64,000 nucleotides of DNA, taken from the NCBI RefSeq assembly GCF_004363655.1, contig NZ_SNZH01000006.1, positions 186,001 to 250,000 on the forward strand, read 5' to 3'. A model generated the notes under the pieces. That model made no database searches. It was given only the letters and a program-made list of their open reading frames with translations, and was not told where the DNA came from. Positions 2,608-49,849 of this stretch are shown here, in pieces (position 1 is the stretch's first letter; every line of letters starts with the position of its first letter). Origin of the DNA: Tahibacter aquaticus (lineage in GTDB: Bacteria; Pseudomonadota; Gammaproteobacteria; Xanthomonadales; Rhodanobacteraceae). The position numbers and the translations under genes were made by a program.

Positions 2608-5097
2608 TCAGTCGAACCCGTCCAGGAAAATCCCCTCCGCCAGCGGCAGATGGAACTGCTTCACGCGCTGCTCGATGCCACTGTAGCTGTCATTGCCGGC
2701 ACTGGCGGTGGCTCCGCGCACCCGCAGATAGAAGGTCTGCGCCAGCGGCGGGAAATAGTTGCGATAGACCCAGTCCTTGCCGCTGCGGGTGAAGTTTCCG
2801 AGTGGTGCATAGGCGACGCCGGTCGGCGAATACGCCAGTTCCGGTGCGCGCGTCAGCTCTGGTGTGGCGCCGGCCCGGCGCCAGTAGACGAAGGCTGCGC
2901 CGCTGCTGTAGGAAATCACGTCGATACTCTGCAATGCGGCCTGGGGTTGGTTGAGCCGGGCGAAATAGTCGTTGTCGCCGACGCCGCCCAGGTCGAGGAA
3001 TTGCCCGCTTGCGTATACCTTTCCATCGGGCGCGATGCTGATGTTGCTGACGAAGCGCGGGCTGGTGTTTGCCGCACTCGGTGTTACCCAGCTCGTATCG
3101 AGGCTGCCGTCGACGTTGAGCCGGTTCAGGAAGGCCGTGTTGTCACCGCCGACCAGCAGCTTGCCGTCGGCTTGCAGGGCCAGCGCACGGATGCTGCTGT
3201 TGAGCTGTGGGTTGTAGGCCGTATCGACGGTGCCATTGGCATTCAAGCGGGCCAGGCCGGCACGGTTGAAACCACCGATGACGCTGAAGGTGCCGGCGAC
3301 GACGACGCGTCCGTCGGCCTGCAAGGCGATGCCTGTGATGGGGGCGTTGGCGCCGGGGTTGAACGTGGTGTCGATGCTGCCGTCCGGCAGCAGCCGCGCA
3401 ATTTCGGCGCGCAGTGCGCCAGCGATGGTCGTGAAAGCCCCGGTGACGAGCATTTTGCCGTCGGGCTGTAGCAGCACGTCGCGCACGGTCCCGTCGGCGT
3501 TCGGATCGAAGCTCGCGTCGATGGTGCCATTGGCGTTGAGCCGCGCGATGCGGTTGCGGCTGGCGCCGGCGGCGAGGCTGAAATCGCCGCCGATCACGAC
3601 ACGGCCATCGGGCTGCAGCGCAATGGCGAAAACGCTGTCGTCGATGGACGGACTGAAGCTGCTGTCGACAATGCCGTTTTCGTTCAGCCGCGCCAGCCGG
3701 GTCCGCGCGTTGACGCCCATCTGCGTGAAAAAGCCGCCGACCAGCATGGACAGATCGGGCTGCAGCACGATGGCAGTGACGCCGTTGTTGGGACCCGGCG
3801 CAAACGTCGCATCGCGGCTGCCGTCGGCGTTCAGGCGCGCCAGGCGGCCTATCGACTGTCCGCCCAGCTGGGTGAAGGAGCCGCCCAGCAGCACGCGGCC
3901 GTCGCCCTGCGGGGCGATCGCGACCGGCGCTGCCGGGGTCGGGCTGGGTACCTGGTCGAAGGCGGTTTCTACCGCGCCGTCCGCATGCAGTTGCGCCAGG
4001 CGGCGGCGCGTCTGGCCGCCGACATTGGAGAAGGTGCCGCCGATCACGATCAGGCCGCTGGCCTGCTGTGCCAGCACGATGACGCTGCTGGTTGCGCTGG
4101 CATTGAAGCCTGCATCGATACTGCCGTCGACATTGACCCGTGCGATACGCGTATGCGTCTGTCCGCCGGCGGTTGCGAAGATGCCGCCGACCAGGGCCTT
4201 GCCGTCGTCCTGCAAGGCGATGCCGAGCACGCCGCCGCTGAAGTTCGGGTCGTAGCCCAGGTCGACCGTGCCGTCGGTGTTCAGGCGCGCCATGCGATTG
4301 CGGGCCTGTCCGCCGATGCTGGTGAAGTTGCCGCCGACCAGCAGCTTGCCGTCCTTCTGCAGGGCCAGCGCGCAGCTGCAGATATCGGGATTCGGTACGT
4401 AGCCGCTGTCGATGCTGCCGCCGCTGCTGACCCGCGCCAGCCCGTTGCGCGGCTGTCCGCCGGCCTGGGTGAAGGTTCCGCTGAAGATCACCCGGCCATC
4501 GGCCTGCAGCGCGATGTTTTCGACCAGGCCATTGGTGCCGGGATTGAAGGCGGAGGACAGCGAGGCTTCGATCATCTGGGCGATATTCGCGCGGGGAAAG
4601 CCGTTCACCGTGCTGAAATCGCCGCCGATCAGCACGCGTCCGTTGGGCCGTACGACGATGCTGTAGACCACGCCGTTGACGTCGGGCACGTAGCTCGGGT
4701 CGACGTTGCCGTCGGCCAGCAGGCGCGCCAGATGGTTGCGCGTGCTGCCGCCGACCTGGGTGAAATTGCCGCCGATCAGAATGCGGCCGTCGAGCTGCAG
4801 TGCGATGGCCTGCACCGCGCCGTCGATATCGATGGCGACGAAATTCGGGTCCAGCCTGCCGTCGGCGGTGAGCCGCGCGAGGCGATTGCGCACGACGCCG
4901 CCGATCTCGGTGAAGGCGCCGCCGATAAGGAACTTGCCGTCGGGCTGGATGGCCAGGGTGACGACGCTGGAATTCACGTCGGGATTGAACGGTGCGGCGT
5001 TCTGCGCGCTGGCCAGCGTGGCGAGGCCGGCATTCAGTACCAGTGCGGCAAGCCAGCAGATGCAGCGGTGCAGCGGCAGGGCGGGGGCGTGCATCAT
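2608..5097 (-). CDS. Exported delta-60 (DUF5122) beta-propeller repeat protein with C-terminal FLDGFD tail
   Basis: An 829-residue exported protein. The start is the first ATG of an ATG-ATG pair preceded by AGAGGGA; upstream in-frame codons look like non-coding DNA. The signal peptide covers about residues 1-34 (ends LASAQN). About 14 repeats of roughly 45-50 residues follow, with consensus ALQxDGRxLIGGxF...RxRLARLxADGxxDxxF, the delta-60 repeat (PF17164) that is predicted to form propellers. A C-terminal domain of about 100 residues ends in GIFLDGFD. The family has no assigned reaction and is usually treated as a surface or secreted structural protein. It is convergent with the S8 protease gene and divergent from the cupin gene. 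The last residues match a motif shared with four other exported proteins in this window. Confidence 0.88.
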   Translation of the reverse strand: MMHAPALPLHRCICWLAALVLNAGLATLASAQNAAPFNPDVNSSVVTLAIQPDGKFLIGGAFTEIGGVVRNRLARLTADGRLDPNFVAIDIDGAVQAIALQLDGRILIGGNFTQVGGSTRNHLARLLADGNVDPSYVPDVNGVVYSIVVRPNGRVLIGGDFSTVNGFPRANIAQMIEASLSSAFNPGTNGLVENIALQADGRVIFSGTFTQAGGQPRNGLARVSSGGSIDSGYVPNPDICSCALALQKDGKLLVGGNFTSIGGQARNRMARLNTDGTVDLGYDPNFSGGVLGIALQDDGKALVGGIFATAGGQTHTRIARVNVDGSIDAGFNASATSSVIVLAQQASGLIVIGGTFSNVGGQTRRRLAQLHADGAVETAFDQVPSPTPAAPVAIAPQGDGRVLLGGSFTQLGGQSIGRLARLNADGSRDATFAPGPNNGVTAIVLQPDLSMLVGGFFTQMGVNARTRLARLNENGIVDSSFSPSIDDSVFAIALQPDGRVVIGGDFSLAAGASRNRIARLNANGTIDASFDPNADGTVRDVLLQPDGKMLVTGAFTTIAGALRAEIARLLPDGSIDTTFNPGANAPITGIALQADGRVVVAGTFSVIGGFNRAGLARLNANGTVDTAYNPQLNSSIRALALQADGKLLVGGDNTAFLNRLNVDGSLDTSWVTPSAANTSPRFVSNISIAPDGKVYASGQFLDLGGVGDNDYFARLNQPQAALQSIDVISYSSGAAFVYWRRAGATPELTRAPELAYSPTGVAYAPLGNFTRSGKDWVYRNYFPPLAQTFYLRVRGATASAGNDSYSGIEQRVKQFHLPLAEGIFLDGFD

Positions 5098-5397
5098 GCG
5101 GAATCCCTCTGATGGCGGTGCTGCGGTATCTCCGCTCGGCATTGCGTGCCGGCGGTGTGGCCCTGCATCGACGATACGCCGGAATGCGCCGCGGCGACGG
5201 CGGGCGTTGCGGACTCGCAGTGAAAAGGAAAACGAGGCTGTGCCGGAGCAGCGAACATGGCGGCAGGCCTGCCGCCGCCGCCGTTTCCTCAGGCGGGTCT
5301 GTTCCGCCGCGGCTTCGGCCGGGCCGACGGTTGCCGACGCGGCCGGATTGCACCGACTATCGGCAGCGAAAATTCCCCCGGCACTAGGAGTACGGCC

Positions 5398-12254: not shown

Positions 12255-13691
12255 CTAGCAACCATCGGCACGATCGAAGGCATGGCAGAACACGCGGTCA
12301 TTGCTGCCGAATTCGTAGGCGCCCTTGTCGGTCGCGCTGCCCAGCGGCCGCGGGGCGCCGCGGAAATCCGAACGCACCAGCGCCGTCGCCGCGCCGCTGT
12401 CCACGCCGGGGCTGGCTGCCGGCAGCTGCAGCGCAGTACTGCCGCTGGTGGCGATGAATAGCGGATCGGCGACCGCGCTGGCGTCGTTGCGCGTGCTGAG
12501 CTGGGTATAGCGCGTCTGCCACTGGGCAAAATTCACCGCGGCGAAGAAGTCGCTGGCGATGAACTGCGGATTGCCGCCGTCGACGAAATAGAGATTGTGG
12601 TCAATTTCCAATGTGGCGTAATCGTCCATCGCGTTGGAGCCGATCTTGATCACCGGCCGCGCGGCGGAACCGTAGAAGACGTTGTTGCGCAGCACGATCT
12701 GGTGGCCCTTCTGGCCGATTTCCGATTCGTTGGAAAACAGCACCGAGCCATGCGTGACCTGGCCGGTGTTGTAGCAGCTGTTGTTGTAAAAGCGCGCATT
12801 CCACGACGAGGCCGTGGCCAGGCACGACCAGCTGGCGTTGACCACCACATTGTTGCGCACGATGCCGTCGTAGCTTTCGTAGTTGCCGTCGAGCAGGCGT
12901 TCCGCATCGGTGGACTGGCCCAGCATCAGCGCATGACCGTTGGCGGCGTTGCCGATATTCACCAGGCGATTGCCTTCGAACACGGCGTCGCGCGCATTGC
13001 CCTTGGCATACACGGCGATATTCGGCACGTCGTGGATGTAGTTGCGTGCCACGCGCACGCGGTCGGCTCCGACGATGTCGACGCCTTGCGCGTTGGCGCT
13101 GGGTACGACGACGGCGGAGTCCTGCCAGATTTCGTTGTCGGTCAGGCTGGCGTCGTTGGCGGTGCGCACCACCTTGACGATGTCGGCGACGCTGCAGCAG
13201 AGCCGGTTGCGGCTCAGCGATACCTTGGGCACGTCGATCTTCACCGCATTGCCGTCGCTGCCGCCGGCCGGGCTGCCCTGGATGGTCAGCCCTTCGATCT
13301 TCCAGTAGTAGGCGCGACAGTCGGTATTGCCGTTGCCGCTGCCGATCGTGTCCTCGTCGCAGTCCGGATGATAGAAGTACAGGGTAGGGCCGCTGCCGCT
13401 GCTGCGCAGCACCGCTGTCTCGCCAGCGTAGGCGCGCAGCACGATGCCGGCTGCCGCCGTGCCGGGCCGGCGCAGGATCACCGCTTCGGTATAGGTGCCG
13501 GCGCGCAGTTCGACCGCATCGCCCGGGTTGACCATGCCGACGGCCTTGGTCACGGTCCTGAACGGTGCGGCCAGGCTGCCGGCATTGCTGTCGTTGCCGC
13601 CGGGAGCGACATACCAGGTTGCCGCCTGCGCGCCGCCCGCAGCGATGATTGCGAATAATGCGAACAAGTTTCTTGGTGTAGATGTTTTCAT
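12255..13691 (-). CDS. Exported right-handed parallel beta-helix protein with C-terminal FxxxF tail
   Basis: A 478-residue exported protein. The start ATG at 13691 is followed by a signal peptide ending GGAQA. The mature N-terminus TWYVAPGGNDSNAGSLAAPF is the DUF1565-like cap of right-handed beta-helix proteins. Beta-helix rungs follow with recurring N/V/I patterns (ARNYIHDV, FEGNRLVNIGN, VRNNVVVNAS, LRNNVFYGS), then DKGAYEFG, common at the end of such domains. Many relatives are polysaccharide lyases or adhesins, but no catalytic residues can be assigned. It ends NDRVFCHAFDRADGC, in which VFCHAFD fits the motif shared by other exported proteins here. Confidence 0.87.
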   Translation of the reverse strand: MKTSTPRNLFALFAIIAAGGAQAATWYVAPGGNDSNAGSLAAPFRTVTKAVGMVNPGDAVELRAGTYTEAVILRRPGTAAAGIVLRAYAGETAVLRSSGSGPTLYFYHPDCDEDTIGSGNGNTDCRAYYWKIEGLTIQGSPAGGSDGNAVKIDVPKVSLSRNRLCCSVADIVKVVRTANDASLTDNEIWQDSAVVVPSANAQGVDIVGADRVRVARNYIHDVPNIAVYAKGNARDAVFEGNRLVNIGNAANGHALMLGQSTDAERLLDGNYESYDGIVRNNVVVNASWSCLATASSWNARFYNNSCYNTGQVTHGSVLFSNESEIGQKGHQIVLRNNVFYGSAARPVIKIGSNAMDDYATLEIDHNLYFVDGGNPQFIASDFFAAVNFAQWQTRYTQLSTRNDASAVADPLFIATSGSTALQLPAASPGVDSGAATALVRSDFRGAPRPLGSATDKGAYEFGSNDRVFCHAFDRADGC

Positions 13692-19117: not shown

Positions 19118-19555
19118 TCACAGCTCGAAAGCGTCGGCAAAGATCGCGTCGGCCGCGGTGATGGTGATCGGGCCGTTCATGGCGGCGTGGTTCTGGCAGT
19201 TGTAATGGAGTGTGTTCGGCGCGTCGTTGGGCACGACGAAGGTAATGTCGATGGTGCCTGTGGCGCCGTTGTTGGTCACGCCGCTGGTGTAGCGCGAACC
19301 GGCGCCGGTAGTGTTGATCGTGTTGATGTTGAACGGATGCACGCCGGCGACGGCGTTGAGATGGAATACGTAAGTGCCGCCGCGTTGCAAGGTGAGGGCG
19401 GGGTTGGTCTGGCCGTCGACGGTCCAGGCGCTGAAGCTGCCGGCGCTGATGGTAAAGGTCTGGGTGACGCCGCCGCGCTTGGCCGCCTGGGCCAGCAGGG
19501 GCGAGCAGGCCAGGGCAGCGGCGGAAAGAACAAGCAGGGAACGCAGTGCGAGCAT
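19118..19555 (-). CDS. Exported cupredoxin-like copper protein with C-terminal FADAFEL tail
   Basis: A 145-residue exported protein. Signal peptide about 1-23, then a plastocyanin/azurin-like beta barrel. Type 1 copper ligands can be assigned as His73 (GVHPFNI), Cys120, His123 and Met126 (YNCQNHAAM), so it is probably an electron carrier or copper binder. GAGG lies 7 nt before the ATG. The C-terminus AIFADAFEL carries the FxxxF signature seen on other exported proteins here. It lies beyond the last beta strand, so it is an add-on and not part of the fold. Confidence 0.87.
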   Translation of the reverse strand: MLALRSLLVLSAAALACSPLLAQAAKRGGVTQTFTISAGSFSAWTVDGQTNPALTLQRGGTYVFHLNAVAGVHPFNINTINTTGAGSRYTSGVTNNGATGTIDITFVVPNDAPNTLHYNCQNHAAMNGPITITAADAIFADAFEL

Positions 19556-26087: not shown

Positions 26088-28388
26088 TTATTGGAAACTG
26101 TCGCGGAAGATCACGTCCCCCGCGACCAGCCAGGTAGCGACCGCCTGCGCCTGCAGGTAGTCGGTTTCGCGGCCGTTGCCAAGAGGCCCGTTCTCGCCCC
26201 AGCCGAAGCAATAGACCAGCCCCTGGCGCGTTGCACAGGTGTGGTAGCCGCCGGCGGAATAAACGTTCACTCCCGCAGACAGGCCGGCCGCCGGCGTAGG
26301 CACGTAGCGATTGGCCGTACTGCCGTCGCCGAGCTGGGCACGGTTGTTGATGCCCCAGCAAAGCAGGCCGCCGCCGCTGCGCGCGCAGGTATGCCGGCCG
26401 CCGGCCTCGATGCTGCTGGTGCTGCCGGCGCCCAGGCCGGCCACGTCGACGGGCAGCAGTTGTTGGGTATTGCCGCCATCGCCGACCTGGCCGTAGTCGT
26501 TCAGGCCCCAGCACTTGACCGCGCCGCTGCTGAGTAGCGCACAGCTGTGGAATTCGCCCAGACTGACACTGTCGACACCGCTGCCCAGGCCGCTGACCGG
26601 CACCGGCGTCGTACGCGCAGTAACCGTGCCGTCGCCGAGCTGGCCGTAGGTGTTGTCGCCCCAGCAGCGCAAGGCGCCTGCGCTGCTTACCGCGCAACTG
26701 TGCGAGCCACCCGCGCTGACCGAGCGCATGCCGCTGAGCATGCCGGCCACGTCGACGGCGCTGCGCCGGTCGGTGGCGGTGCCGTCGCCGAGCTGGCCGA
26801 AATTGTTGTCGCCCCAGCAGCGCACGCCACCGGCGCTGGTACGTACGCAATTGTGGAAAATGCCAACACCGAGCTGGGTCACCTGGCTGGAAGCGCCGAC
26901 CACATCCTCCGGCAGGGTGCGGTTGCCGGTGGCGTTATTGCCCAGCTGGCCCTGGTCGTTGCCGCCCCAGCATTTGACGGCGCCGGCCTGGGTCAGCAGG
27001 CAGCTGTGGCCGGAGCCCGCGCCGATATCGCGCACGCCACTGGCATAGCCGGTGACCACGGCCGGACCGTTACGGCTCCAGTTGGTATGGCCCTGGCCCA
27101 GCTGACCGCGGTAGTTCGAACCCCAGCACCAGGCGCCGCCGCTGAGCGTGCGTGCACAGGTATGGCCGTCCTGGATGTTCGCGCCGATGTGACCGCCGGC
27201 AGCGAGTTTGTCGACCGCTTCCGGCAGGGCCGCCAGCGACTGTGCCAGCGACGCCCAGCCGCCGTCGAATCCGTTGCCCAGCGCACCGACATCGCCATTG
27301 CCGGCGCAGCGAATTTCATGGTTGCTGCGGCGAAAACAACTCAGTTCGGTGCCGGTGGCAATCTGTGTGACGGCGCTGCCCAGATCAGTGACGGCGACCG
27401 GCGTAAGGCGGTTGAGGCGCGTGCTGTCGCCCAGTTCGCCATTGCCGTTGGCACCCCAGCAGAAGGCTGCACCCGCAGCGCTGCGCGCGCAGGTGTGGTA
27501 GCCGCCGACGCTGATCTCGGCAACGCCACTCAGCGAAAGCACCGCCGTCGGCTGCCACCGGTCGACCAGGCTGCCGTCGCCGAGCTGGCCGGCATCGTTC
27601 TGGCCCCAGCAGCGGACGGTCGCATCGGCGAGCAGGGCGCAGGTGGTATAGCCGCCCGCGGCGATCGCGCTGACGCCGCTGCCCAGGCCGGCGACGGCAA
27701 TCGGCGTCAGGCGATTGAGATTGCTGCCGTCGCCCAGCTGGCCGCGATTGTTGTAGCCCCAGCATTTCACCGCGCCGGCCTGGCTCAGGGCGCAGGCATG
27801 GTAATAGCCGGTGGCAACGGCCCTGATGGCGCTCAGGCCCGGCACATCGACCGGAGCGTTGCGCTGGGTTGTGGAGTTGTCGCCGAGCTGACCCTGATGA
27901 TTGCGGCCCCAGCAACGCACGCCACCGGTGGCGGTGACGGCGCAACCGAATTCGGCACCGACGGCGAAATCCAGCGCCCCGCTGGCGAAGCCGACGACGT
28001 CGGCAGGAGTACTGCGCGCAGTCGTGGTGTTGTCACCGAGCTGGCCGTAGCTGTTGTTGCCCCAGCAGCGCAGTCGGCCGCCAGTGCTCAGGACACAGCT
28101 TTGGGTGGCGCCCTGGGCGACGTGCAAAGCCCCTTGCTCCAGGCCGAAAACCGGCACCGGCGCCTGGCTGCCGCCGCCGCCGTCGCCAGGCGAAGCGCCC
28201 CAGCATTTTAGAGCGCCGGCCGCCGTGATGGCACAGGCGCGGTTGGTGCCGGCCGCGACCGATTTGGCGGCCACAAGGCCAGGCAGCAGCAGTGTGGCGA
28301 CGGCGAGCAGGGCGCGAAACCACGGCAACGGCCTACGGCGGCGGCGCGGCCTTGGGATCGGCGTCGAGCGGGAGAGAGAAGTGATCAT
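26088..28388 (-). CDS. Exported RCC1/BNR-repeat beta-propeller protein with C-terminal FRDSFQ tail
   Basis: A 766-residue exported protein. Start ATG at 28388, then an arginine-rich n-region and a hydrophobic core (RALLAVATLLLPGLVAA). About 14 RCC1-like repeats follow, each with the pattern CA(L/V)...GAVKCWGxNxxGQLGDGTxxxRxxPV and usually a Cys pair per repeat. Two seven-bladed propellers would fit that number. It ends VIFRDSFQ, the FxxxF tail shared with other exported proteins here. Members of this kind are common and uncharacterised in Lysobacterales and Myxococcota. It lies downstream of, and on the same strand as, the Ser/Thr kinase, separated by 171 bp. Confidence 0.88.
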   Translation of the reverse strand: MITSLSRSTPIPRPRRRRRPLPWFRALLAVATLLLPGLVAAKSVAAGTNRACAITAAGALKCWGASPGDGGGGSQAPVPVFGLEQGALHVAQGATQSCVLSTGGRLRCWGNNSYGQLGDNTTTARSTPADVVGFASGALDFAVGAEFGCAVTATGGVRCWGRNHQGQLGDNSTTQRNAPVDVPGLSAIRAVATGYYHACALSQAGAVKCWGYNNRGQLGDGSNLNRLTPIAVAGLGSGVSAIAAGGYTTCALLADATVRCWGQNDAGQLGDGSLVDRWQPTAVLSLSGVAEISVGGYHTCARSAAGAAFCWGANGNGELGDSTRLNRLTPVAVTDLGSAVTQIATGTELSCFRRSNHEIRCAGNGDVGALGNGFDGGWASLAQSLAALPEAVDKLAAGGHIGANIQDGHTCARTLSGGAWCWGSNYRGQLGQGHTNWSRNGPAVVTGYASGVRDIGAGSGHSCLLTQAGAVKCWGGNDQGQLGNNATGNRTLPEDVVGASSQVTQLGVGIFHNCVRTSAGGVRCWGDNNFGQLGDGTATDRRSAVDVAGMLSGMRSVSAGGSHSCAVSSAGALRCWGDNTYGQLGDGTVTARTTPVPVSGLGSGVDSVSLGEFHSCALLSSGAVKCWGLNDYGQVGDGGNTQQLLPVDVAGLGAGSTSSIEAGGRHTCARSGGGLLCWGINNRAQLGDGSTANRYVPTPAAGLSAGVNVYSAGGYHTCATRQGLVYCFGWGENGPLGNGRETDYLQAQAVATWLVAGDVIFRDSFQ

Positions 28389-31181: not shown

Positions 31182-31212
31182 CGGTGTACAGTTCCCGTAG
31201 GGGAGATATGTA

Positions 31213-31773
31213 ATGTTGCTGGATCTGGACCGTTACGATATTACCGAATTGCTGCAGCGCTGGAGCGACGGCGATACGGCGGCGCGCAATGCGCTGTTCG
31301 ACGCGGTCTACCTGCCGCTGCGCCGTACCGCGCAGCAGGCGCCGCGCCAGGGCGAGACATTCACCGTATCGGCGCTGGTGCACGAAACGTTCTTGCGCCT
31401 GAGCGCCAGCGAAGCCGCGAACTTTCGCGACCGCACGCATTTTGCGGCGGTCTGCGTGCTGGCAATGAAGGGCGTGCTGGTCGATCAGTACCGCCGCCGC
31501 CAGACGCGTGGCGAGGCGCTGCCGCTGGCGGCAGCGAGTGGATTGGGCGATACCGCGACACAGCAGTTCGACCTGCGCAATGCGATCGCCGAACTGGGGG
31601 AGTTGCGGCCGGAACAGGCCGATGCGCTGACCCTGCGCTACTGGGGCGGCCTGGATCTGGCGCAGATTGCAGCAGAGTTGAAATGTTCCATTTCTACCGT
31701 GCAGCGCGATCTGCGCAAAGCCGAGTTCTTCGTGCGTACGCGGCTGCACGAAACACAGCAGCCGCCGTCGTAG
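31213..31773 (+). CDS. ECF sigma factor (TIGR02999 type) paired with a Ser/Thr kinase
   Basis: A 186-residue RNA polymerase sigma factor with regions 2 and 4 only. ALVHETFLRLSASEAANFRDRTHFAAV and MKGVLVDQYRRRQTRG match the TIGR02999 group. Region 4 is LRPEQADALTLRYWGG, with HTH AQIAAELKCSISTVQRDLRKAE. GGGGAG precedes the ATG at 9-10 nt. Such sigma factors are often encoded beside Ser/Thr kinases that regulate them by phosphorylation; no anti-sigma gene is present. The last codons and the stop overlap a dispersed repeat (R1), so the C-terminal QQPPS may derive from the repeat. Confidence 0.92.
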   Translation: MLLDLDRYDITELLQRWSDGDTAARNALFDAVYLPLRRTAQQAPRQGETFTVSALVHETFLRLSASEAANFRDRTHFAAVCVLAMKGVLVDQYRRRQTRGEALPLAAASGLGDTATQQFDLRNAIAELGELRPEQADALTLRYWGGLDLAQIAAELKCSISTVQRDLRKAEFFVRTRLHETQQPPS

Positions 31774-40851: not shown

Positions 40852-42375
40852 ATGAAAAGAAATGTACTCAACGCCGCGATTGCCGCGGGTCTGTTTGCGG
40901 TCGCCGGTACGGGCGGTAGCGCGAAGGCGGTCGAGCTGAGCCCCGACGGCACCGGCCAGGTGCTGATCTATCCCTATTACACGGTCAACCGGCAGCAGAC
41001 GACCCTCATCACGGTGGTCAACGGGACCAATGTCGCGAAGGCGGTGCGGGTGCGTTTCCTCGAGGGCTATAACGCGCGCGAGGTGCTGGACTTCAACCTG
41101 TTCCTGTCGGAGTACGACGTCTGGACGGCCACCGTATTCGCGCTGACCGACGCCGGGCAGGCGGGCGATGGCGCCGCCGTCACCACGACCGACCGTAGCT
41201 GTACCGCTCCACACAAGGACGTGTGGAGCGGAGCGCTCGGTACCGGCCGTCCGTACCAGGAGTTCCTGTCGTTCGGATATATCGGCCCGCATCAGGACAC
41301 CGGGCCGACGGGCATCGCACGGACGCGCGAAGGCTATGTCGAGATCGTGCAGATGGCCGACCTCAGCGGAGCGCTGAGCACGGCAGTGACGCACGCCAGT
41401 GGGACTCCGCGCAATTGCGGCGCCGTGCAGACCATCGATCCGGCCAACCCCCAGCTTCTGCCGCCGACCGGCGGACTGTTCGGCGCGGGTGGCATCGTCA
41501 ATGTCGCACAGGGAACGTTCTATACCTACAACGCCGATGCGATCGGCGGCTTCAGCAAGGCCGTGCTGTATGAGGACCCCGCGGCGCCCACTTCCACGCC
41601 GTCGCTGGCGCAGGCGAACACGGCGCCCGGCGTGGCAACGGCCTATGTATTCGATGCGGCCGGCGAGCAGTTCCGCTCGGACTACCCGGTCTCGGGCCAG
41701 CCCAGCCGGGCGATCGATGCGGTTTCCGCGGTGTTCATGGCGTCTACCCTGCTCAACGAATACAACGTCGATTCGGCTGTCGGATCGAATACCGACTGGG
41801 TCGTGACGTTTCCGACCAAGCGCTTCTATGTCGATCCGGAAATCCTGGGCGTGGCGCTGGGCAGTGCCGGTGCCCTGCCGCCGTTCACTTTCACGTTCGG
41901 CCAGCCGTCCACGGTCAACGGATTCTCGGTCAACGGCGACGGGCGGTCCTGCAGCCAGGTTGCGTTTTTGCCGTTCGATCGCGAATCAGGCCGTCCGACC
42001 GGTAATCCTCCCGGTTTTCCGGGTACGCCGACACCGATTCCCGTGCTGTGCACTTCGGTCAATGTCATCAGCATGGGCAACAGTTCAACGCCGCCGGTCG
42101 AATCGGCGGTGCTGGGGTCCCGGCTGCATACCAACCTGCGACCGTTCAGCAGCAGTGGCTGGCTGCGCCTCACGCTGGAGACAACGGCGCAGCCGCATGC
42201 ACTGCGCGCGTCGAGCGACGGCGACGTGTACAGCGGCTTGCCGGCAACCGGGTTCCAGGCGGTGAACTACGTCAACGCCAATTTGACGCCGGGCGTATTG
42301 TCGAACTACAGCGGAGCGTTCCGGCATCGCGCGGTGAGGGCCTGCGCGAATGCGGTTTCGGGCAGCTGTCCTTGA
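40852..42375 (+). CDS. Exported protein of a tandem three-copy family, copy 1
   Basis: A 507-residue exported protein. TTGGAG lies 7 nt before the ATG; signal peptide about 1-28. The mature start VELSPDGTGQVLIYPYYTVN begins a conserved domain that continues with VRVRFLEGYNAREVLDFNLF and LSEYDVWTATVFAL. This belongs to an unnamed group of proteobacterial surface proteins recognised by their 'GQVLIYPYYT' start. Beta-rich throughout, with a few cysteines and the end RACANAVSGSCP. No enzyme motif is visible. Two paralogues follow in the same orientation at very high identity. Confidence 0.82.
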   Translation: MKRNVLNAAIAAGLFAVAGTGGSAKAVELSPDGTGQVLIYPYYTVNRQQTTLITVVNGTNVAKAVRVRFLEGYNAREVLDFNLFLSEYDVWTATVFALTDAGQAGDGAAVTTTDRSCTAPHKDVWSGALGTGRPYQEFLSFGYIGPHQDTGPTGIARTREGYVEIVQMADLSGALSTAVTHASGTPRNCGAVQTIDPANPQLLPPTGGLFGAGGIVNVAQGTFYTYNADAIGGFSKAVLYEDPAAPTSTPSLAQANTAPGVATAYVFDAAGEQFRSDYPVSGQPSRAIDAVSAVFMASTLLNEYNVDSAVGSNTDWVVTFPTKRFYVDPEILGVALGSAGALPPFTFTFGQPSTVNGFSVNGDGRSCSQVAFLPFDRESGRPTGNPPGFPGTPTPIPVLCTSVNVISMGNSSTPPVESAVLGSRLHTNLRPFSSSGWLRLTLETTAQPHALRASSDGDVYSGLPATGFQAVNYVNANLTPGVLSNYSGAFRHRAVRACANAVSGSCP

Positions 42376-42402
42376 TGGCTGCGGTATCCACTTTGTACTG
42401 AG

Positions 42403-42479
42403 CGAAACGCCGCTGCCGCCGTCGTAGCGAAACGGCACTGCCGGATGGCTGGCGTTGCGGGAAATCGCGCGGGCCGGTT
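42403..42479 (+). repeat. Dispersed hairpin repeat R, copy 2 (truncated)
   Basis: Matches the first ~75 bp of copies 1 and 3 (core CCGCCGTCGTAGCGAAACGG, then GAAATCGCGCGGGCCGG) but breaks off in the left arm of the GC hairpin and runs straight into the 100-nt leader of tandem protein 2. Confidence 0.75.
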
Positions 42480-42579
42480 TTCGCCTTGCACTGAGCGTGG
42501 TCACGCGTCACAACGACCGGCAGCACGTCGCCGCCACGCCTGGGAATGCTGGTTCATTCCTTGCCTGTTGGAGTTTGCG
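42480..42579 (+). repeat. Conserved 100-nt leader of tandem exported protein 2
   Basis: Same leader as at 40752. It begins TTCGCCTTGCACTGA, which reads as the final codons of the small ORF that precedes copy 1; the rest of that ORF is missing here. Confidence 0.85.
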
Positions 42580-44097
42580 ATGAAAAGAAATGTACTCAAC
42601 GCCGCGATGGCGGCGTGTGTGATGGCGGTCGCCGGCACGGGCGGCAGCGCGAAGGCGGTCGAGCTGAGCGCCGATGGTATCGGCCAGGTGCTGATCTATC
42701 CCTATTACACGGTCAACCGGCAGCAGCAGACCCTCATCACGGTGGTCAATGGGACCAGCGTCGCGAAGGCGGTGCGGGTGCGTTTCCTCGAGGGCTATAA
42801 CGCGCGCGAGGTGCTGGACTTCAACCTGTTCCTGTCGGAGTACGACGTCTGGACGGCCACCGTATTCGCGCTGACCGACGCCGGGCGGGCGGGCGATGGC
42901 GCCGCCATCTTCACGACCGATCGTAGCTGTACCGCTCCGGACAAGGCCGAGTGGTCCGGCTCGCTCGGTACCGGCCGTCCATTCCAGGAATTCCTGCCGG
43001 TCGCGTATACCGGCCCGCATCAGGACACCGGGCCGACGGGTATCGCGCGGACACGCGAAGGCCATGTCGAGATACTGCAGATGGCCGACCTCAGCGGAGC
43101 GCTGCGCACGGCAGTGACGCACACCGCTGGGGTTCCGCCGAATTGCAACGCCGTCCAATCGATCGACCCGGCCGATACCGATCTGCTGCCGCCGACCGGT
43201 GGACTGTTCGGCGCGGGTGGCATCGTCAATGTCGCAGAGGGAACTTTCTTTTCCTACAACGCCGATGCGATCGGCGGCTTCAGCAAGGTCGTGCTGTATT
43301 CGGACCACACAGAGCCCGCCCCGTCGCTGGCGCAGGCGAACACGGCGCCCGGCGTGGCAACGGCCTATGTATTCGATGCGGCCGGCGAGCAGTTCCGCTC
43401 GGACTACCCGACCTCGGGCCAGCCCAGCCGGGCGATCGATGCGGTTTCCGCGGTGTTCATGGCGTCTACCCTGCTCAACGAATACAACGTCGATTCGGCT
43501 GTCGGATCGAATACCGACTGGGTTGTGACGTTTCCGACCAAGCGCTTCTATGTCGATCCGGAAATTCTGGGACTGCCGCTGGGCAGTGCCGGTGCCCTGC
43601 CGCCGTTCAATTTCACGTTCGGCCAGCCGTCCACGGTCAACGGATTCTCGGTCAACGGCGACGGGCGGTCCTGCAGCCAGGTCGCGTTTCTGCGGTTGGA
43701 TCGCGAATCAGGCCGTCCGACCGGTAATCCTCCCGGTTTTCCGGGTACGCCGACACCGATTCCCGTGCTGTGTACGTCGGTCAACGTCATCAGCATGGTG
43801 AGCAGTTCCGCACCGCCGGTCGAATCCGCGGTGCTGGGGTCCCGGCTGCATACCAACCTGAAACCGTTCGACCAAGGTGGCTGGCTGCGCCTCACGCTGG
43901 AGACGACGACGCAGCGGCATGCACTGCGTGAGTCGAGCGACGGCGACGTGTACAGCGGCTTGCCGGCAACCGGCTTCCAGGCGGTGAACTACGTCAATGC
44001 CCATTTTGCGCCAGGCGTGTTGTCGAACTACAGCGGGGCGTTCCGGCATCGCGCGGTGAGGGCTTGCGCGAATGCGGTTTCGGGCAGCTGTCCTTGA
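42580..44097 (+). CDS. Exported protein of a tandem three-copy family, copy 2
   Basis: A 505-residue paralogue of copy 1 with the same leader, ribosome binding site, signal peptide (MKRNVLNAAMAACVMAVAGT) and domain layout. Differences are concentrated in two places: the segment after DTGPTGIARTREGHVEI, and the loop before SLAQANTAPG, which is two residues shorter (YSDHTEPAP). The last ~120 residues are almost unchanged. It lacks the upstream small ORF. Function unknown; probably surface-exposed or secreted. Confidence 0.82.
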   Translation: MKRNVLNAAMAACVMAVAGTGGSAKAVELSADGIGQVLIYPYYTVNRQQQTLITVVNGTSVAKAVRVRFLEGYNAREVLDFNLFLSEYDVWTATVFALTDAGRAGDGAAIFTTDRSCTAPDKAEWSGSLGTGRPFQEFLPVAYTGPHQDTGPTGIARTREGHVEILQMADLSGALRTAVTHTAGVPPNCNAVQSIDPADTDLLPPTGGLFGAGGIVNVAEGTFFSYNADAIGGFSKVVLYSDHTEPAPSLAQANTAPGVATAYVFDAAGEQFRSDYPTSGQPSRAIDAVSAVFMASTLLNEYNVDSAVGSNTDWVVTFPTKRFYVDPEILGLPLGSAGALPPFNFTFGQPSTVNGFSVNGDGRSCSQVAFLRLDRESGRPTGNPPGFPGTPTPIPVLCTSVNVISMVSSSAPPVESAVLGSRLHTNLKPFDQGGWLRLTLETTTQRHALRESSDGDVYSGLPATGFQAVNYVNAHFAPGVLSNYSGAFRHRAVRACANAVSGSCP

Positions 44098-44696
44098 TGG
44101 CTGCGGCATCCACGTTGCCGCTTCGGAACGCTGCTGTGCAGTGGCGGCGACAGCCGCTCAGGTGCTGCACCCGGGTCCCTGCTTAGCCGGAGCGGCAGCT
44201 GCAAATACGCTCGCGTACGGTGCGAGGAGACGGCCCTGCGCGGCGTTGGAGGGCGGACTCGGCATCGCTGACGTTGCACGGCGGCAGCGCGAAAAGACAG
44301 GTTGCACGATGTGGCAAAAAGGCTTGGGGGGAAACGCGGGTGGCTACGTCTATCGCAACAGAATACGTCATCGAGGCGGGGGCATCGTCAGTGTCGACGC
44401 GATCCCGCTGGCCGGGCATGCCGACGAACGACGGCATGGCCAATCCGCAGCGGCGCACGCAGGACGGTCACCGCCACGCGATAGCTTGCAAATAATACAA
44501 ATAACGTAATGCAGCGTTTTCCATAAAGCATCTGTTTTCTGATCGCGACGCCCCGGGTGGGTGTCGCCAAAAACCCGAAGCGGTTGGGAAGGATTCGTGC
44601 GCGCCACGGATACGGCGTGCTGTTGCCTGGAATCTGCTGCTGCTGTGCTGAGGGTGTCTGCTGCTCCGATGGGTCTGGCCGAAGGAACTGGCGTCA
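44098..44696. other. Duplicated non-coding block, copy 2
   Basis: Related to 39873-40484, starting near 44115. It includes an AT-rich patch (AAATAATACAAATAACG) not found in the first copy. ORFs here are not conserved between the copies, so I annotate no gene. Confidence 0.55.
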
Positions 44697-44984
44697 TGTA
44701 TCGCATCCCCGATAGGCCCCGAGTGTTGAATGCCGGCCGCCGGCCGCGGGCCACGCCTGCGGTGCGTGGCCGCTTGTCGCCGCGCGGGCTATCGCGTCGC
44801 CGTCGAAGCAACGCCGGCCACGCCGTTGCGCTGGACGGTATTCCGCCCCGGGCTGCGCACCGTATTCGCGCCGGGCATCGGTGCCACGCGCGAAGCCGCG
44901 ATCGACGCGGCGAATGGGGGGATCCGGCAGCACATCGAGACGACGCGGATGGCCGCAGCGACTCGGATATTCGCCTCGCACTGA
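44697..44984 (+). pseudogene. Frameshifted copy of the small ORF upstream of tandem protein 3
   Basis: Starts MYRIPDRPRVLNAGRRP as in the intact copy at 40485. A several-base insertion near 44745 (GCGGGCCAC in place of GTGCC) then shifts the frame. The remainder, RAGYRVAVEATPATPLRWTV through FASH, is preserved in the next frame to its stop at 44984. Translation as one protein is not possible without frameshifting. Confidence 0.65.
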
Positions 44985-45069
44985 GCGTGGTCACGCGTCA
45001 CACCGACCGGCAGCACGTCGCAGCCACGCCTGCGAATGCCGGTTCATTCCTTGCCTGTTGGAGTTTGCG
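44970..45069 (+). repeat. Conserved 100-nt leader of tandem exported protein 3
   Basis: Third copy of the leader at 40752 and 42480, again ending with GGAGTTTGCG directly before the ATG. Confidence 0.85.
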
Positions 45070-46578
45070 ATGAAAAGAAATGTACTCAACGCCGCGATTG
45101 CGGCGGGTCTGTTTGCGGTCGCCGGCATGGGCGGCAGCGCGAAGGCGGTCGAGCTGAGCCCCGACGGTGCCGGCCAGGTGCTGATCTACCCCTATTACAC
45201 GGTCAACCGGGAGCAGCAGACCATCGTCACGGTGGTCAACGGGACCAATGTCGCGAAGGCGGTGCGGGTGCGTTTCCTCGAGGGTTACAACGCGCGCGAG
45301 GTGCTGGACTTCAACCTGTTCCTGTCGGAGTACGACGTCTGGACGGCCACCGTATTCGCGCTGACCGACGCCGGGCTGGCGGGCGATGGCGCCGCCGTCA
45401 CCACGACCGACCGTAGCTGTACCGCTCCGGACAAGGCCGCGTGGAGCGGCTCGCTCGGTACCGGCCGTTACTACCAGGACTTCCTGTCGTTCGCGTATAC
45501 CGGCCCGCATCAGGACACCGGGCCGACGGACATCGCACGCACGCGCGAAGGCTATGTCGAGATTGTGCAAATGGCCGATCTCGGTGGCGCGCTGCGCACG
45601 GCAGTGACGCACACCGCTGGGGTGCCGGCGAATTGCAGCGTCGTGCAGACCATCGATCCGGCCAACCCCGAGCTTCTGCCGCCGACCGGCGGGCTGTTCG
45701 GCGCGGGTGGTATCGTCAATGTCGCATTAGGTACTTTCTATACCTACAACGCCGATGCGATCAGCGACTTCAGCAAGGTCGTGCTGTATGCGGACCCCGC
45801 GGCGCCCACTTCCACGCCCTCGCTGGCGCAGGCGAACACGGCGCCCGGCGTGGCAACGGCTTATGTGTTCAATGCGGACGGCGCGCAGTTCCGCTCGGAT
45901 TACCCGGCCTCGCGCCGGCCCAGCCAGGCGATCGATGCGGTATCCGCGGTGTTCATGGCGTCCACCTTGCTCAACGAATACAACGTCGATCCGTTGGTCG
46001 GATCGAATACCGACTGGGTTGTGACGTTTCCGACCAAGCGTTTCTATGTCGATCCGGAAATTCTGGGCGTGCCGCTGGGCAGTGCCGGTGCCCTGCCGCC
46101 GTTCACTTTCACGTTCGGCCAGTCGTCCGCGGCTAACGGCGACGGGCGGTCCTGCAGCCAGGTTGCGTTGCTGCCGTTCGATCGCGAATCAGGCCGTCCG
46201 ACCGGTAGTCTTCCCGGTTTTCCTCTGCCGACACTGACTCCCGTGCTCTGCACGTCGGTCAACGTGATCAGCATGCGCAACAGTGCCACGCCGCTGGTCG
46301 AATCGGCGGTGCTGGGATCCCGGCTGCATACCAACCTGCGACCGTACAGCGCAGGTGGCTGGCTGCGCCTCACGCTGGACACGGCCGCGCAGCCGCATGC
46401 GCTGCGCGCGTCGAGCGACGGCGATGTCTACAACGGCTTGCCGGCAACCGGGTTCCAGGCGGTGAATTACGTCTCTGAGAATATCGTGCCGGGCCTGTTG
46501 TCGAACCACGGCGGGGCGTTCCGGCATCGCGCGGTGCGGGCCTGCCGGAATGCGGTGTCGGGCGGCAACTGTCTTTGA
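45070..46578 (+). CDS. Exported protein of a tandem three-copy family, copy 3
   Basis: A 502-residue paralogue of copies 1 and 2. Same signal peptide and 'GQVLIYPYYTVN' mature start. It has a short deletion near residue 355, where STVNGFSVNGDG of the other copies becomes SAANGDG, and small changes near the C-terminus (RNAVSGGNCL). Dispersed repeat R follows directly after the stop and could act as terminator. Function unknown. Confidence 0.82.
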   Translation: MKRNVLNAAIAAGLFAVAGMGGSAKAVELSPDGAGQVLIYPYYTVNREQQTIVTVVNGTNVAKAVRVRFLEGYNAREVLDFNLFLSEYDVWTATVFALTDAGLAGDGAAVTTTDRSCTAPDKAAWSGSLGTGRYYQDFLSFAYTGPHQDTGPTDIARTREGYVEIVQMADLGGALRTAVTHTAGVPANCSVVQTIDPANPELLPPTGGLFGAGGIVNVALGTFYTYNADAISDFSKVVLYADPAAPTSTPSLAQANTAPGVATAYVFNADGAQFRSDYPASRRPSQAIDAVSAVFMASTLLNEYNVDPLVGSNTDWVVTFPTKRFYVDPEILGVPLGSAGALPPFTFTFGQSSAANGDGRSCSQVALLPFDRESGRPTGSLPGFPLPTLTPVLCTSVNVISMRNSATPLVESAVLGSRLHTNLRPYSAGGWLRLTLDTAAQPHALRASSDGDVYNGLPATGFQAVNYVSENIVPGLLSNHGGAFRHRAVRACRNAVSGGNCL

Positions 46579-46600: not shown

Positions 46601-46717
46601 CGAAACGCCGCTGCCGCCGTCGTAGCGAAACGGCACGGCCGGATGGGCGGGTGTGGCGGAGAAATCGCGCGGGCCGGTGACGGCCCGCGCGGTGTCGCGT
46701 TCGGCAAATGCCGAGCC
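46601..46717 (+). repeat. Dispersed hairpin repeat R, copy 3
   Basis: Full-length copy. The core CCGCCGTCGTAGCGAAACGG is followed by GGAGAAATCG and a 10-bp stem CGCGCGGGCC / GGCCCGCGCG (46666-46691). Relative to copy 1 the stem has a compensated A-T to G-C change. It begins about 20 bp after the stop of tandem protein 3. Confidence 0.75.
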
Positions 46718-46765
46718 CATCGGAATTGGTTTTTTAGCTGCCGCTCACTCGACGCAACAACGTAG

Positions 46766-46806
46766 CCGGACCCTCGCGATGCAAGGGTCCGGCGGGGGGG
46801 GGGGGG
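46766..46806. repeat. Hairpin followed by a 13-G homopolymer
   Basis: A stem CCGGACCCT / AGGGTCCGG is followed at once by GGC and then thirteen G residues (46794-46806). It lies between the convergent tandem protein 3 and extracellular nuclease genes. It looks like a terminator hairpin whose tail is a G-tract rather than a T-run. Homopolymer length may be a sequencing artefact. Confidence 0.6.
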
Positions 46807-46858
46807 CCATTCCGCAGCGCGGTACGCGGGCCGCCTACGCGCTAGCGGCGGTGGGCGC

Positions 46859-49849
46859 TTACTCGAAACCGTCCTGGAAGATGACGCCGTCGTCGAACAG
46901 GCCGACCAGTACCGGGTCGTGGTCCGAGGCGCGGTAGGGGCTGGCCGCTTCGAACAGGCTGCGCGGCGGTGTCAGGCTGGCGCCGTTGGGCTCTTCTTCG
47001 TAGGCGGCTTCGCCGGTGTCCTTGATGTCGTCGCTGTAGTCCAGCTGCGGCAGTTCGTCGGCATTGATGTGCCAGGGCGCGACGGCTATCACCTGGGGCG
47101 ACAGGCTGGCGCTGGCCAGGGCGTAGTCGAGGTGGCCGAGCTGGCCGTCGAACAGGTAGGAATAGGCGCCGCTGCCGCCCAGGGTGGCGAGCAGGTCGGT
47201 GTAGCCGCCGGCGGCGAGCGTGCTGATGGCGCTTTCCTTGGCATAGGCGTTGTAGTCGCCCAGCAGCAGCACGTCGGCGTCGTTCGCTGCGGGCAGTACC
47301 GTGCTGCCGATCCAGCTCAGCAGGCGCGCGGCCTGTTGCTGGCGCCGGCTGGCATAGCAGGCCTGGCCGTCGCCACTGTCGGCATCGGCACCGCTGGCGC
47401 CGGAACAGCTCTTCGACTTGAAGTGGTTGACCACGGCGCTGAAGCGCTGGCCGAAGGCCGGGTTGGTGGCATCGACGACGTCGAAGGTCTGTGCCAGCGG
47501 CGGGCGGTTGTGGATGCTGTTGCTGTCGCTCAGCGCCGCGCCGACGGTGGCCAGTACGCCGCTGCGGTAGATCAGCGCGACGCGGATCGCATCGCTGCCC
47601 AGTGCGGCGGCAGGGCCGGCGGCCTGGTACGGGTGCGCGCCGCCGCAGCGGTCGTTGACCGCGCCGAGCAGGTCGGTTAGCGGTGTGGAGGTTGCGGCAT
47701 TTTCCAGTTCTACCAGGCCGACCAGGTCGGCATTCAGGCCGCACAGCACGAGGGCGGTGCGCTCGCGCTGGCGCGCGAGTTCGGCGTTGCTGTCGGCACC
47801 GCGGCAGTCTTGGCTGCTGCTGGGGCCGCAGGGGCCGGACGAGCTGCTGGACGTGGTGTCGATGCTGGTGAAGTAGTTGAGCAGGTTGACGCCGGCGGCC
47901 TTGATCGCACCGGCCACGGCGGGCGCCTGCACCGGCCGCTCGTTGACCGGCGTGAACACGATGGGGTTGGCCTGGGTGGGACGGATGCGCCAGGCGTCGG
48001 TGCCGGTGCTGCCGGCGAACGACCAGTGCAGCACGCCGGTCAGGTTGTCGACGCGGTCGCCGCCGCGGAAGAAATCGCTGCCGTGGCTGCCGACGGAGAA
48101 ACCGCCGTTGGTCTGCGGGTAGTACAGGTATTGCTGGCCTTCGGCCACGGTCAGCGGCCAGTTTTCCGTGTTGTTCTCGTCGTCGAGAATCACGCGCCGG
48201 CGCGACAGTGCTTCCAGGTGCGCGGCATAGCCGGCATTGCCCGGTGCGTTGTCTTCGGTGAACTGGCGCGGACGGCCACCCTGGTACAGCTCGATCTGGC
48301 CGTAGCGCGCCAGTTCGAAATACTCGGCCACGCTGAGTGCATCGGCGAAGCGCACGAGCATGCCTTCGCGGGCTTCGTAGTAGGCATCGACGCTGCCGGC
48401 GATCGGCAGGCTCACACTGGCCGGCGTCACCTGGGCGAGGTTGTTGCCCGCGTTGGTGACAACGACGCTGCCGGCGCTGCTGGCGGTGATCTCGGTCAGG
48501 CCGAAGAACTCGGTCACGTTGCCGGTGGCGCGCACACGCTGGCCTTCGCTCACGCTGGTGGCGCAGGGCAGGCAGTACACAAAGATACCTTCCGAGGTGG
48601 CCGGGTCGGCATCGGCATCGGCGTCTTCTTCCTGCAGGAAGAAACCGGACAGCTGGTCGGCGCGCTGGAAGCTGGCGGTGACGATGCCTTCGAGCGTGAC
48701 CGTGACGCCGGCACCGATCGGCGTGCTGCTGCCGTTGCCTTGCACGTCATGGATCTTCGCCAGCGGCAGGGCATCGTCGTTGACGAGGGTGCCCACGCCT
48801 TCGCCATCGGCGATCACCGCGTTGACCGCATTGCTCAGCAGTACGCGCAGCGTTTCGTTGGGCTCTGCCGTGGTATCGCCGTTGATGCTGACGGTAAAGG
48901 TATAGCTGCTGCTGCCGGCGGGAATGAGCTGGCCGCTCAGCGACTGCGCGGTGTAGTCCGACGGGGCCGTGGCGGTGCCGTCGGCGGTGGCGATGGCGAA
49001 GCTGACGCCGCCGGCCGGTGCGGGTTGCGACAGGCTGACGGTGAAGTTCAGGGTGCTGCTGCCGCTGTTGCCTTCGTCGATGCTGGCGTCGTTGATGCTC
49101 AGCGTGGTCTGCTGCGGGCCGCTGCCGTGCGGCGTGACCGAGACGTCGTCGATGGCCAGGCCGTGGTCGGCGCCGGCGTTGTCCGGATCGGACCAGCGCA
49201 GCATGATTTCGCTGCCGTTGGGCAGGCTGATGCCACTCAGGGTGAAGCTGCGTGCGCTGCGGTTGGCGGCGAGGTTGCCGTTCAAGGCACCGGCGGTGCC
49301 GGCTGTGACCGGGCTGCTGAAATCCAGGCCGGCGACGGCGGTGCCGGCGCTCTGGAATTCGCTCAGCGTGCCGGTGACGGCAGTGCCGATCAGGTACGAG
49401 AACGCCACCGTCTGCGCGGCTGCGGCGCTGTTGCGCCACTGCTCGCCGACGTAGGCGATATCCAGCGAGGTGATGGTGCTGCCGGTGGTGTTCTTCAGGC
49501 GCACGCCCCAGAACAGGTTGCCGACGGCGGCATTGCCGGAGCCGACCGAGCCCAGCGCGCGTTCGCTCGCGCCGCTGCTGCCGTAGCTGTAGAGGTTGCC
49601 GGCGTTGCTGGCGCCGGTGTCGGCGACCAGGTTGCTGCCGCTGCCGGTGCGCGCGTGGTACCAGCCGGGCAGGCTGGTGTTGTTGCTCCAGACGGCCGTG
49701 CCGCTGGCCGGCAGGCTGTCGAAATTTTGCGTATACGGCGTATCGAGCGTGCTCAGCGACACCTGTGCCTGGACGGCGGGTGCGAGCAGCGCGAGCGCGA
49801 CGGCAAGCCAGGTGGCCTGGCGCCGCAGCGAATGCGGTCGAGTGTTCAT
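46859..49849 (-). CDS. Extracellular ExeM/NucH-like endonuclease with Calx-beta domain and C-terminal FQDGFE tail
   Basis: A 996-residue exported nuclease. ATG at 49849 behind AGGGG; signal peptide ends APAVQA. Domain order: N-terminal beta-sandwich (about 30-240), Calx-beta (about 250-350, SINDASIDEGNSGSSTLNFTVSL), an OB/lamin-tail-like region (about 360-640, IHDVQG), and an endonuclease/exonuclease/phosphatase domain (about 670-985). Active-site elements include VGLVELEN, VVNHFKSKSC, LLLGDYNAY and YRASDHDPVLVGL. It should degrade extracellular DNA with a divalent metal, as ExeM and NucH do. The last residues, VIFQDGFE, form the shared FxxxF tail and lie just after the EEP domain. Confidence 0.93.
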   Translation of the reverse strand: MNTRPHSLRRQATWLAVALALLAPAVQAQVSLSTLDTPYTQNFDSLPASGTAVWSNNTSLPGWYHARTGSGSNLVADTGASNAGNLYSYGSSGASERALGSVGSGNAAVGNLFWGVRLKNTTGSTITSLDIAYVGEQWRNSAAAAQTVAFSYLIGTAVTGTLSEFQSAGTAVAGLDFSSPVTAGTAGALNGNLAANRSARSFTLSGISLPNGSEIMLRWSDPDNAGADHGLAIDDVSVTPHGSGPQQTTLSINDASIDEGNSGSSTLNFTVSLSQPAPAGGVSFAIATADGTATAPSDYTAQSLSGQLIPAGSSSYTFTVSINGDTTAEPNETLRVLLSNAVNAVIADGEGVGTLVNDDALPLAKIHDVQGNGSSTPIGAGVTVTLEGIVTASFQRADQLSGFFLQEEDADADADPATSEGIFVYCLPCATSVSEGQRVRATGNVTEFFGLTEITASSAGSVVVTNAGNNLAQVTPASVSLPIAGSVDAYYEAREGMLVRFADALSVAEYFELARYGQIELYQGGRPRQFTEDNAPGNAGYAAHLEALSRRRVILDDENNTENWPLTVAEGQQYLYYPQTNGGFSVGSHGSDFFRGGDRVDNLTGVLHWSFAGSTGTDAWRIRPTQANPIVFTPVNERPVQAPAVAGAIKAAGVNLLNYFTSIDTTSSSSSGPCGPSSSQDCRGADSNAELARQRERTALVLCGLNADLVGLVELENAATSTPLTDLLGAVNDRCGGAHPYQAAGPAAALGSDAIRVALIYRSGVLATVGAALSDSNSIHNRPPLAQTFDVVDATNPAFGQRFSAVVNHFKSKSCSGASGADADSGDGQACYASRRQQQAARLLSWIGSTVLPAANDADVLLLGDYNAYAKESAISTLAAGGYTDLLATLGGSGAYSYLFDGQLGHLDYALASASLSPQVIAVAPWHINADELPQLDYSDDIKDTGEAAYEEEPNGASLTPPRSLFEAASPYRASDHDPVLVGLFDDGVIFQDGFE

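Follow-up and report, generated by a model that had tools for sequence, protein, structure and literature searches.

Unrelated exported proteins of Tahibacter aquaticus share a nine-residue terminal peptide, and we think that the odds are about even (a probability of roughly 0.5) that this peptide serves as a portable secretion tag recognised by a second type II secretion system (T2SS), called here system A. Whatever its reader, there is good support for the peptide as a sorting-type tag that unrelated exported proteins have in common. In its fuller form, the consensus reads D-x-[IVL]-F-x-[DN]-[GSD]-F-[ED], and 0–12 residues follow it. The evidence comes from the window, i.e., the whole 64,000-nucleotide stretch of DNA that was analysed, from the rest of the same genome, and from surveys of other genomes.

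The tag in the window and in its genome

The first-pass annotation of the window had pointed out five exported proteins with a common tail, and all five were found where it had placed them (Table 1), within a set of tagged proteins that is larger than first noted. Among all stop-to-stop frames of at least 60 aa in the window, [IVLFM]Fx3F occurs in the last 20 residues of exactly five, which are these same proteins. Judged by a crude rule, all five have signal peptides after two starts are shifted, that of the delta-60 gene to about 5097 and that of the beta-helix gene to about 13691. The cupredoxin label given earlier to the small exported protein has no Pfam match behind it. In the nuclease, the match to the ExeM domain stops 12 residues short of the C-terminus. 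The window also holds three similar exported proteins in tandem at 40852–46578 (507, 505, and 502 aa), which are without the tag, as the annotation had stated.

Table 1. Tagged proteins of the window and the positions of their tags.
Feature	Position	Strand	Database match
Delta-60 (DUF5122) beta-propeller protein, signal peptide, tag carrier	2608..5097	-	
Tag EGIFLDGFD, last nine residues of the delta-60 protein	2611..2637	-	
Beta-helix / choice-of-anchor Q protein, signal peptide, tag carrier	12255..13691	-	
Tag DRVFCHAFD plus five residues (RADGC) of the beta-helix protein; weak form, H at the D/N position	12273..12299	-	
Small exported protein, tag carrier (earlier label: cupredoxin)	19118..19555	-	
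Tag DAIFADAFE, then L, of the small exported protein	19124..19150	-	
RCC1-repeat protein, signal peptide, tag carrier	26088..28328	-	
Tag DVIFRDSFQ, last nine residues of the RCC1 protein	26091..26117	-	
ExeM/NucH-family extracellular nuclease, signal peptide, tag carrier	46859..49849	-	NF033681, E 5.5e-144
Tag GVIFQDGFE, last nine residues of the ExeM nuclease	46862..46888	-	

The F-x3-F core of the consensus first proposed was retained and refined by the D that usually stands at position -2 and by [DN] plus a small residue between both F. Further tails of the same genome are DVIFADDFEL, DRIFANGFESTP, DAIFSNGFDPSTP, DLLFTDSFD, DAIFDDGFDGN, and DRIFGNGFETP. Of 67 tails of this genome that were compared, 61 have D at -2, 61 have D or N two places past the first F, and 65 end the motif with E, D, or Q; 0–11 residues follow the motif. 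These position frequencies are biased towards the pattern that fetched most of the tails. Counted by eye, 14 of the 17 tag-like tails in an unpicked sample have D at -2. The [DN]-G step, which roughly every second tail contains, may indicate a tight turn. Some tails bear two tags in a row (L268, L351, and L111; an example is DLIFKNGFESDIIFKDGFE).

The unpicked sample consisted of 897 genes called by our own script, blind to the motif, on 1.264 Mb of the same genome with the window included. The comparison with shuffled tails that had been proposed for this signature gave a clear enrichment: loose [IV]Fx3F was found in 17 tails against 2.92 after shuffling (maximum of 9 in 200 shuffles), and [IVLM]Fx[DN]xF[DEQ] in 13 tails of the 897 genes against 0.05 (maximum of 1), with only five occurrences outside tails in 361,079 residues. 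The beta-helix tail, with its H at the D/N place, is not one of the 13. The crude rule classed 11 of the 13 matching proteins as exported, and the other two are the protein at window position 2608, with its misplaced start, and C2:54873, in which a signal peptide seen by eye had been misfiled as a membrane protein. Thus, with 11 of 13 exported by rule and two by eye, the pattern is not equally common in cytoplasmic C-termini.

A DNA-level search of the genome with GAYNNNVTNTTYNNNRAYNNNTTYGA gave 59 matches, compared with none for the reversed pattern. Fifty-seven of these 59 places were read. The motif lies no more than 12 residues from a stop codon in 48 and directly after an apparent signal peptide in three, it is internal to long proteins in four (export being established for fewer than all four), and two places are doubtful or chance matches. 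Its description as a C-terminal signature is therefore mostly right, although not as a strict rule, since N-terminal and internal copies occur as well. The 48 strict C-terminal copies all differ in DNA, and their codon use is close to that of the genome (TTC in 84 of 96 cases versus 0.82 in the genome; GAC in 37 of 48 versus 0.68); it is the peptide that is constrained. AT-rich relatives encode the same peptide with AT-rich codons.

Carrier proteins and position of the tag

The carrier set was formed by 68 proteins, i.e., 74 fetched, minus seven (six with a non-terminal motif and one cytoplasmic chance match), plus the beta-helix protein of the window. The last residues of these proteins (420 at most) matched 36 NCBIfam and 64 Pfam families with E values up to 0.001, and among the best 25 of each list there are M36 peptidases, RCC1, delta-60, Kelch, NHL, FG-GAP, phospholipase C, ExeM nuclease, DUF11, and others. 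The M36 models matched among the 68 carriers are rhombosortase-dependent (11) and myxosortase-dependent (10), and the choice-of-anchor models are choice_anch_J (7) and choice_anch_Q (6). Such names point to families whose relatives bear other sorting tails, and here the tag takes that slot. No T9SS C-terminal sorting domain appears among the best 25 of the 36 NCBIfam families.

Nine tails searched alone match no NCBIfam sorting model, in line with the earlier remark that no sorting signal of this form has a name; the sole NCBIfam match of that search is the ExeM domain ahead of the tag, and its 30-residue tails are too short to contain a T9SS sorting domain. Among the papers listed in the literature searches, none was found to describe the nine-residue motif. 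It is unlikely that the tag is the last strand of an outer-membrane beta-barrel, as its carriers include propellers, peptidases, nucleases, and DUF1800 proteins. Nor is it part of the folded domain in the ExeM, choice_anch_Q, DUF1800, and M36 proteins examined.

In DUF1800 proteins, the tag, where present, is at the other end. One of the three copies that follow a signal peptide in the genome of the window belongs to this family; in it, the tag ends at residue 35 and PF08811 starts at residue 48. A tag follows the signal peptide in each of the 24 DUF1800 proteins that were read from tag-rich genomes (14 by the relaxed regex and 10 degenerate by eye, among the latter DALLANGFE and LIFRDGYE, two of the ten being very weak), and in none of the three read from two tag-poor genomes; these 27 proteins are the loci fetched, a subset of all matches. 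An AlphaFold2 model of DUF1800 built from 27 sequences has a mean pLDDT of 88, and its sole stretch below 50, the only part predicted to be disordered, is residues 1–14, which contain the tag. For the M36 C-terminus, the model (11 sequences) is weak, with a mean of 65.7, and the tag scores about 49; other stretches also fall below 50. The conserved C-terminus of DUF1800 may explain why the tag lies at the opposite end. The tag is a portable terminal peptide and not a CTERM signal of the transmembrane type.

Distribution across genomes

In a survey of 150 Lysobacterales genomes at least 90% complete, the number of tags per genome ranged from 0 to 119, with a total of 2534, versus 26 for the reversed-pattern control. 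Family f2 and most of families f1 and f76 are near zero, and the other eight families are mostly full; the tag is missing in whole genera of the order. The survey of the class gave no genome above 4 tags among 199 outside the order, with 108 matches in all versus 61 for the control, so that the tag is there slightly above background at most. A first survey of the phylum, in which 8 of 299 genomes matched, was too strict, as the stop codon had been included in the pattern.

The carriers that could be named comprise at least Marinicella species, Tahibacter soli, Dokdonella fugitiva, Pseudofulvimonas gallinarii, Rudaea, and Lysobacterales MAGs, besides at least some MAGs labelled Alcanivoracaceae or Oceanospirillales. 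Four of the MAGs with these last two labels are tag-rich (69, 22, 30, and 11 matches versus 2, 2, 2, and 0 for the control), and their GspE is 58–65% identical to GspE of system A (GspE-A).

A second T2SS that follows the tag

It had been suggested that a secretion component with the same distribution as the tag should be looked for, and GspD of a second T2SS (GspD-A) was found to track it. The 40 genomes compared were hand-picked from the survey of the order, 20 tag-rich and 20 tag-poor, with G302 (two strict matches) classed as tag-rich. All 20 tag-rich genomes have GspD over the cut-off and, hence, a T2SS; two GspD over the cut-off were found in 19 of them, and one plus fragments in the twentieth (G411). 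The tag-poor genomes have one GspD in 16 cases, none in two, and more than one in two. A tree of 32 GspD sequences gave two groups, A and B, each with 100/100 and with joining branches of more than 2 changes per site. Tag-rich and tag-poor genomes alike are found in group B, and group A is formed by 18 tag-rich genomes and one tag-poor genome (G365). The clade-A GspD of a further genome (G154) was missed by the blast filter used for the tree and was found separately at 92% identity.

GspD-A is a canonical secretin, with 375 bits to PDB 5wln, and GspD-B reaches 140 bits at best. In 20 system-A loci gspC is beside gspD, and all 20 GspC have T2SSC and PDZ matches; according to PMC11981180, the Xps GspC has a single helix where others have PDZ. 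One system-A locus read gene by gene has, in this order, gspC, an alpha/beta hydrolase gene, gspD, gspE, gspF, ftsE, and ftsX. The alpha/beta hydrolase gene between the system-A gspC and gspD is that of an AT-rich relative (L382, 10879–11790), and in G302 gspC directly adjoins gspD. A crude pattern found no pseudopilin genes near system A. In the genome of the window, the system-A genes are away from the window, on contig C18.

The link between the tag and system A is strong, not perfect. Among the 150 genomes, at least three tags are present in 71 of the 76 with GspD-A (4 of them partial and 72 complete, nearly complete, or split in two) and in 5 of the 74 without it. Fisher's test gives p = 6e-30 for this association, a value that ignores relatedness; when GspD-A was shuffled within families, which leaves relatedness below family in place, at most 69 was reached in 20000 trials versus the observed 71. 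By family, at least three tags occur with and without GspD-A, respectively, in 5/5 versus 0/22 genomes of f1, 1/1 versus 0/27 of f2, 2/3 versus 2/21 of f76 (weak), and 21/22 versus 2/3 of f77 (hardly informative). The joint loss of tag and system A rests on few independent events in these four families.

Five tag-rich genomes are without GspD-A (G401, G339, G406, G350, and G380). GspE of G401 is 54% identical to GspE-A (547 bits) and, judging by this sequence, is probably GspE-A; GspE of G331 is likewise 54% identical, yet this genome has only a distant Xcs-like GspD and no tags. The fragmented MAGs G339 and G406 and the 97–98% complete G350 and G380 have neither GspD-A nor GspE-A, only the other type. 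With a relaxed pattern, without the leading D, these four stay tag-rich (38, 69, 18, and 15 matches versus 0, 5, 0, and 0 for the control), and G302 is tag-rich as well (23 versus 0). By the same pattern, G365 (1 versus 1), G372 (3 versus 1), and G436 (2 versus 0) are tag-poor despite GspD-A, and G351, in which GspD-A is present, is borderline (5 versus 1). Tag-poor genomes taken for comparison gave 2 versus 0 (G330), 2 versus 3 (G343), 2 versus 0 (G340), 6 versus 2 (G360), 0 versus 0 (G304), 1 versus 1 (G384), and 0 versus 0 (G331).

A canonical T2SS alone does not imply the tag, since an Acinetobacter genome has one, with GspE 58% identical to GspE-A, and the tag is absent from it (3 versus 2). 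Eight f2 genomes (G094, G331, G338, G364, G369, G414, G349, and G437) have a GspD whose identity to clade A reaches 39–51% over the best piece, and zero tags; this GspD is perhaps that of an Xcs system. The partner profiling covered rhombosortase, GspD, and GspE, and other genes could track the tag better.

Comparison with known sorting signals

The tag resembles GlyGly-CTERM, which goes with rhombosortase, and MYXO-CTERM, which goes with myxosortase, in being a short C-terminal motif on many unrelated exported proteins, with homologous M36 carriers. Unlike both of them, it has no transmembrane helix, basic cluster, Gly-Gly, or Cys, and it can be N-terminal. With 0–11 residues behind the motif in 67 tails, a tripartite CTERM signal (GlyGly-, MYXO-, PEP-CTERM, or LPXTG) is ruled out. 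The C-terminal domains of the T9SS are also a portable address on unrelated exported proteins, but they are folded and of about 70–100 residues, versus nine residues here.

Rhombosortase, which was itself identified through co-distribution (PMC3237569), was tried as a partner and rejected. It is over the cut-off in 3 of 40 genomes (G090, G333, and G343), all tag-poor; its model TIGR03902 exceeds the cut-off in none of 21 tag-rich genomes, with a near miss in G433 (80.1 of 84 bits).

The cargo of the T2SS folds in the periplasm and is recruited by GspC and GspD, and in Dickeya the exposed nine-residue loop 3 of PelI is a T2SS signal recognised by these two components (PMC7949064). The tag is, like that loop, a short flexible segment; unlike it, the tag is one linear sequence on many folds, whereas the loop concerns one enzyme family and acts together with other loops. 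In Vibrio, VesB depends on the PDZ of EpsC, and the Ig fold of VesB carries transplantable PDZ-dependent information (PMC12369372). GspC of clade A has a PDZ, as GspC of the EpsC/OutC type does, but the tag is a terminal peptide, and the VesB signal is a folded Ig domain.

Proposed mechanism and alternatives

In the mechanism that we propose, a tagged protein, exported by Sec, would fold in the periplasm, where its tag would be bound by the second, canonical T2SS of the Gsp/Out type (clade A: GspC with PDZ, GspD, GspE, and GspF). Docking would most likely take place via the PDZ of GspC and/or the N-domains of GspD, and the cargo would pass through the GspD-A secretin to the cell surface or the medium. 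Proteins without tag would take the Xps-like system (clade B) or be retained in the periplasm, and the five tagged proteins of the window would be cargo of system A. We conjecture that a tight turn could fit an N-terminal or internal copy into a groove that usually takes C-termini.

The first-pass annotation had considered a role in secretion, anchoring, or processing. This proposal is supported in part: the motif is not strictly C-terminal and has no membrane segment or basic end behind it, which argues against anchoring coupled to cleavage and for an export recognition peptide. A signal for surface retention or processing, read by another outer-membrane or periplasmic receptor or enzyme with system A as a correlated passenger, is nevertheless the alternative that we take most seriously, although we consider it rather unlikely. 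Many tagged proteins are of kinds that bear anchor tails elsewhere, tag-rich genomes without GspD-A exist, and tandem tags occur (L268 and L351), all of which would suit such a signal. It is opposed by the few residues behind the motif, which leave no room for a membrane segment and a basic end, by N-terminal and internal copies that are ill-suited to cleavage-coupled anchoring, and by the occurrence of rhombosortase in tag-poor genomes only, apart from the near miss in one tag-rich genome.

A handle for periplasmic chaperones or quality control, in which a SurA- or DegP-like factor would bind F-x3-F before export, would account for two aromatics in a flexible end and for the presence of the tag almost exclusively on exported proteins. 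Such chaperones act generally, whereas outside the order the tag is close to background and within it whole genera lack the tag, and the D at -2 is also kept; we therefore regard this explanation as improbable. A functionless origin of the tag, as the usual end of folded domains or as a DNA cassette that was copied around, is hardly credible. Several carriers are indeed related M36/MAM or choice-of-anchor proteins, but the DNA of the C-terminal copies is different in every one of the 48 and follows roughly the codon use of the genome, that of AT-rich relatives follows theirs, and in the cases examined the tag is outside the domain models, at either end.

How the T2SS recognises folded cargo is a long-standing open question. 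PMC7949064 notes that T2SS substrates apparently lack common linear sequences, and PMC11981180 states that a conserved signal for outer-membrane transport is not yet identified. A secretion tag read by system A might be the first shared linear T2SS signal, usable at either end and read by the PDZ of GspC and GspD, with two T2SSs that sort cargo by the presence or absence of the tag; we put this forward tentatively, as a possibility somewhat short of an even chance. If it is true, the cargo of one T2SS could be listed from sequence across much of an order. Should the reader be something other than a T2SS, an address peptide carried by dozens of exported proteins in each genome would still place many proteins of unknown function on a single route.

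Gene neighbourhoods and additional observations

Only one of the 20 system-A loci, that of G393, has a strict tag gene directly beside gspC; in G323 the tag gene beside gspC is degenerate (DIIFRYGHE), and others lie within 20 kb in G346 and G327. No linked sorting enzyme stood out when the neighbours of tag genes were clustered. Among the genes listed around the tag loci of low-count genomes no machinery was found, with gene models that are poor in small GC-rich sets.

One protein of 2329 residues (L167, 2521–9510) ends in a hydrophobic segment plus arginines and resembles a tripartite CTERM tail, so a second sorting route may coexist in this genome.

Besides tag carriers, the largest clusters of neighbours resemble regulators (Ser/Thr kinases, ECF sigma factors, and response regulators, labelled by eye), and the remaining ones, of 2–4 loci each, look like housekeeping genes. 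Apparent pairs of an ECF sigma factor and a Ser/Thr kinase, also labelled by eye, recur beside tag genes, in another family as well (window 28560–31773; L192, 6300–9751; L188, 3050–6448; L194, 1532–4848; L200, 11132–12659), and such pairs may regulate the tagged exoproteins.
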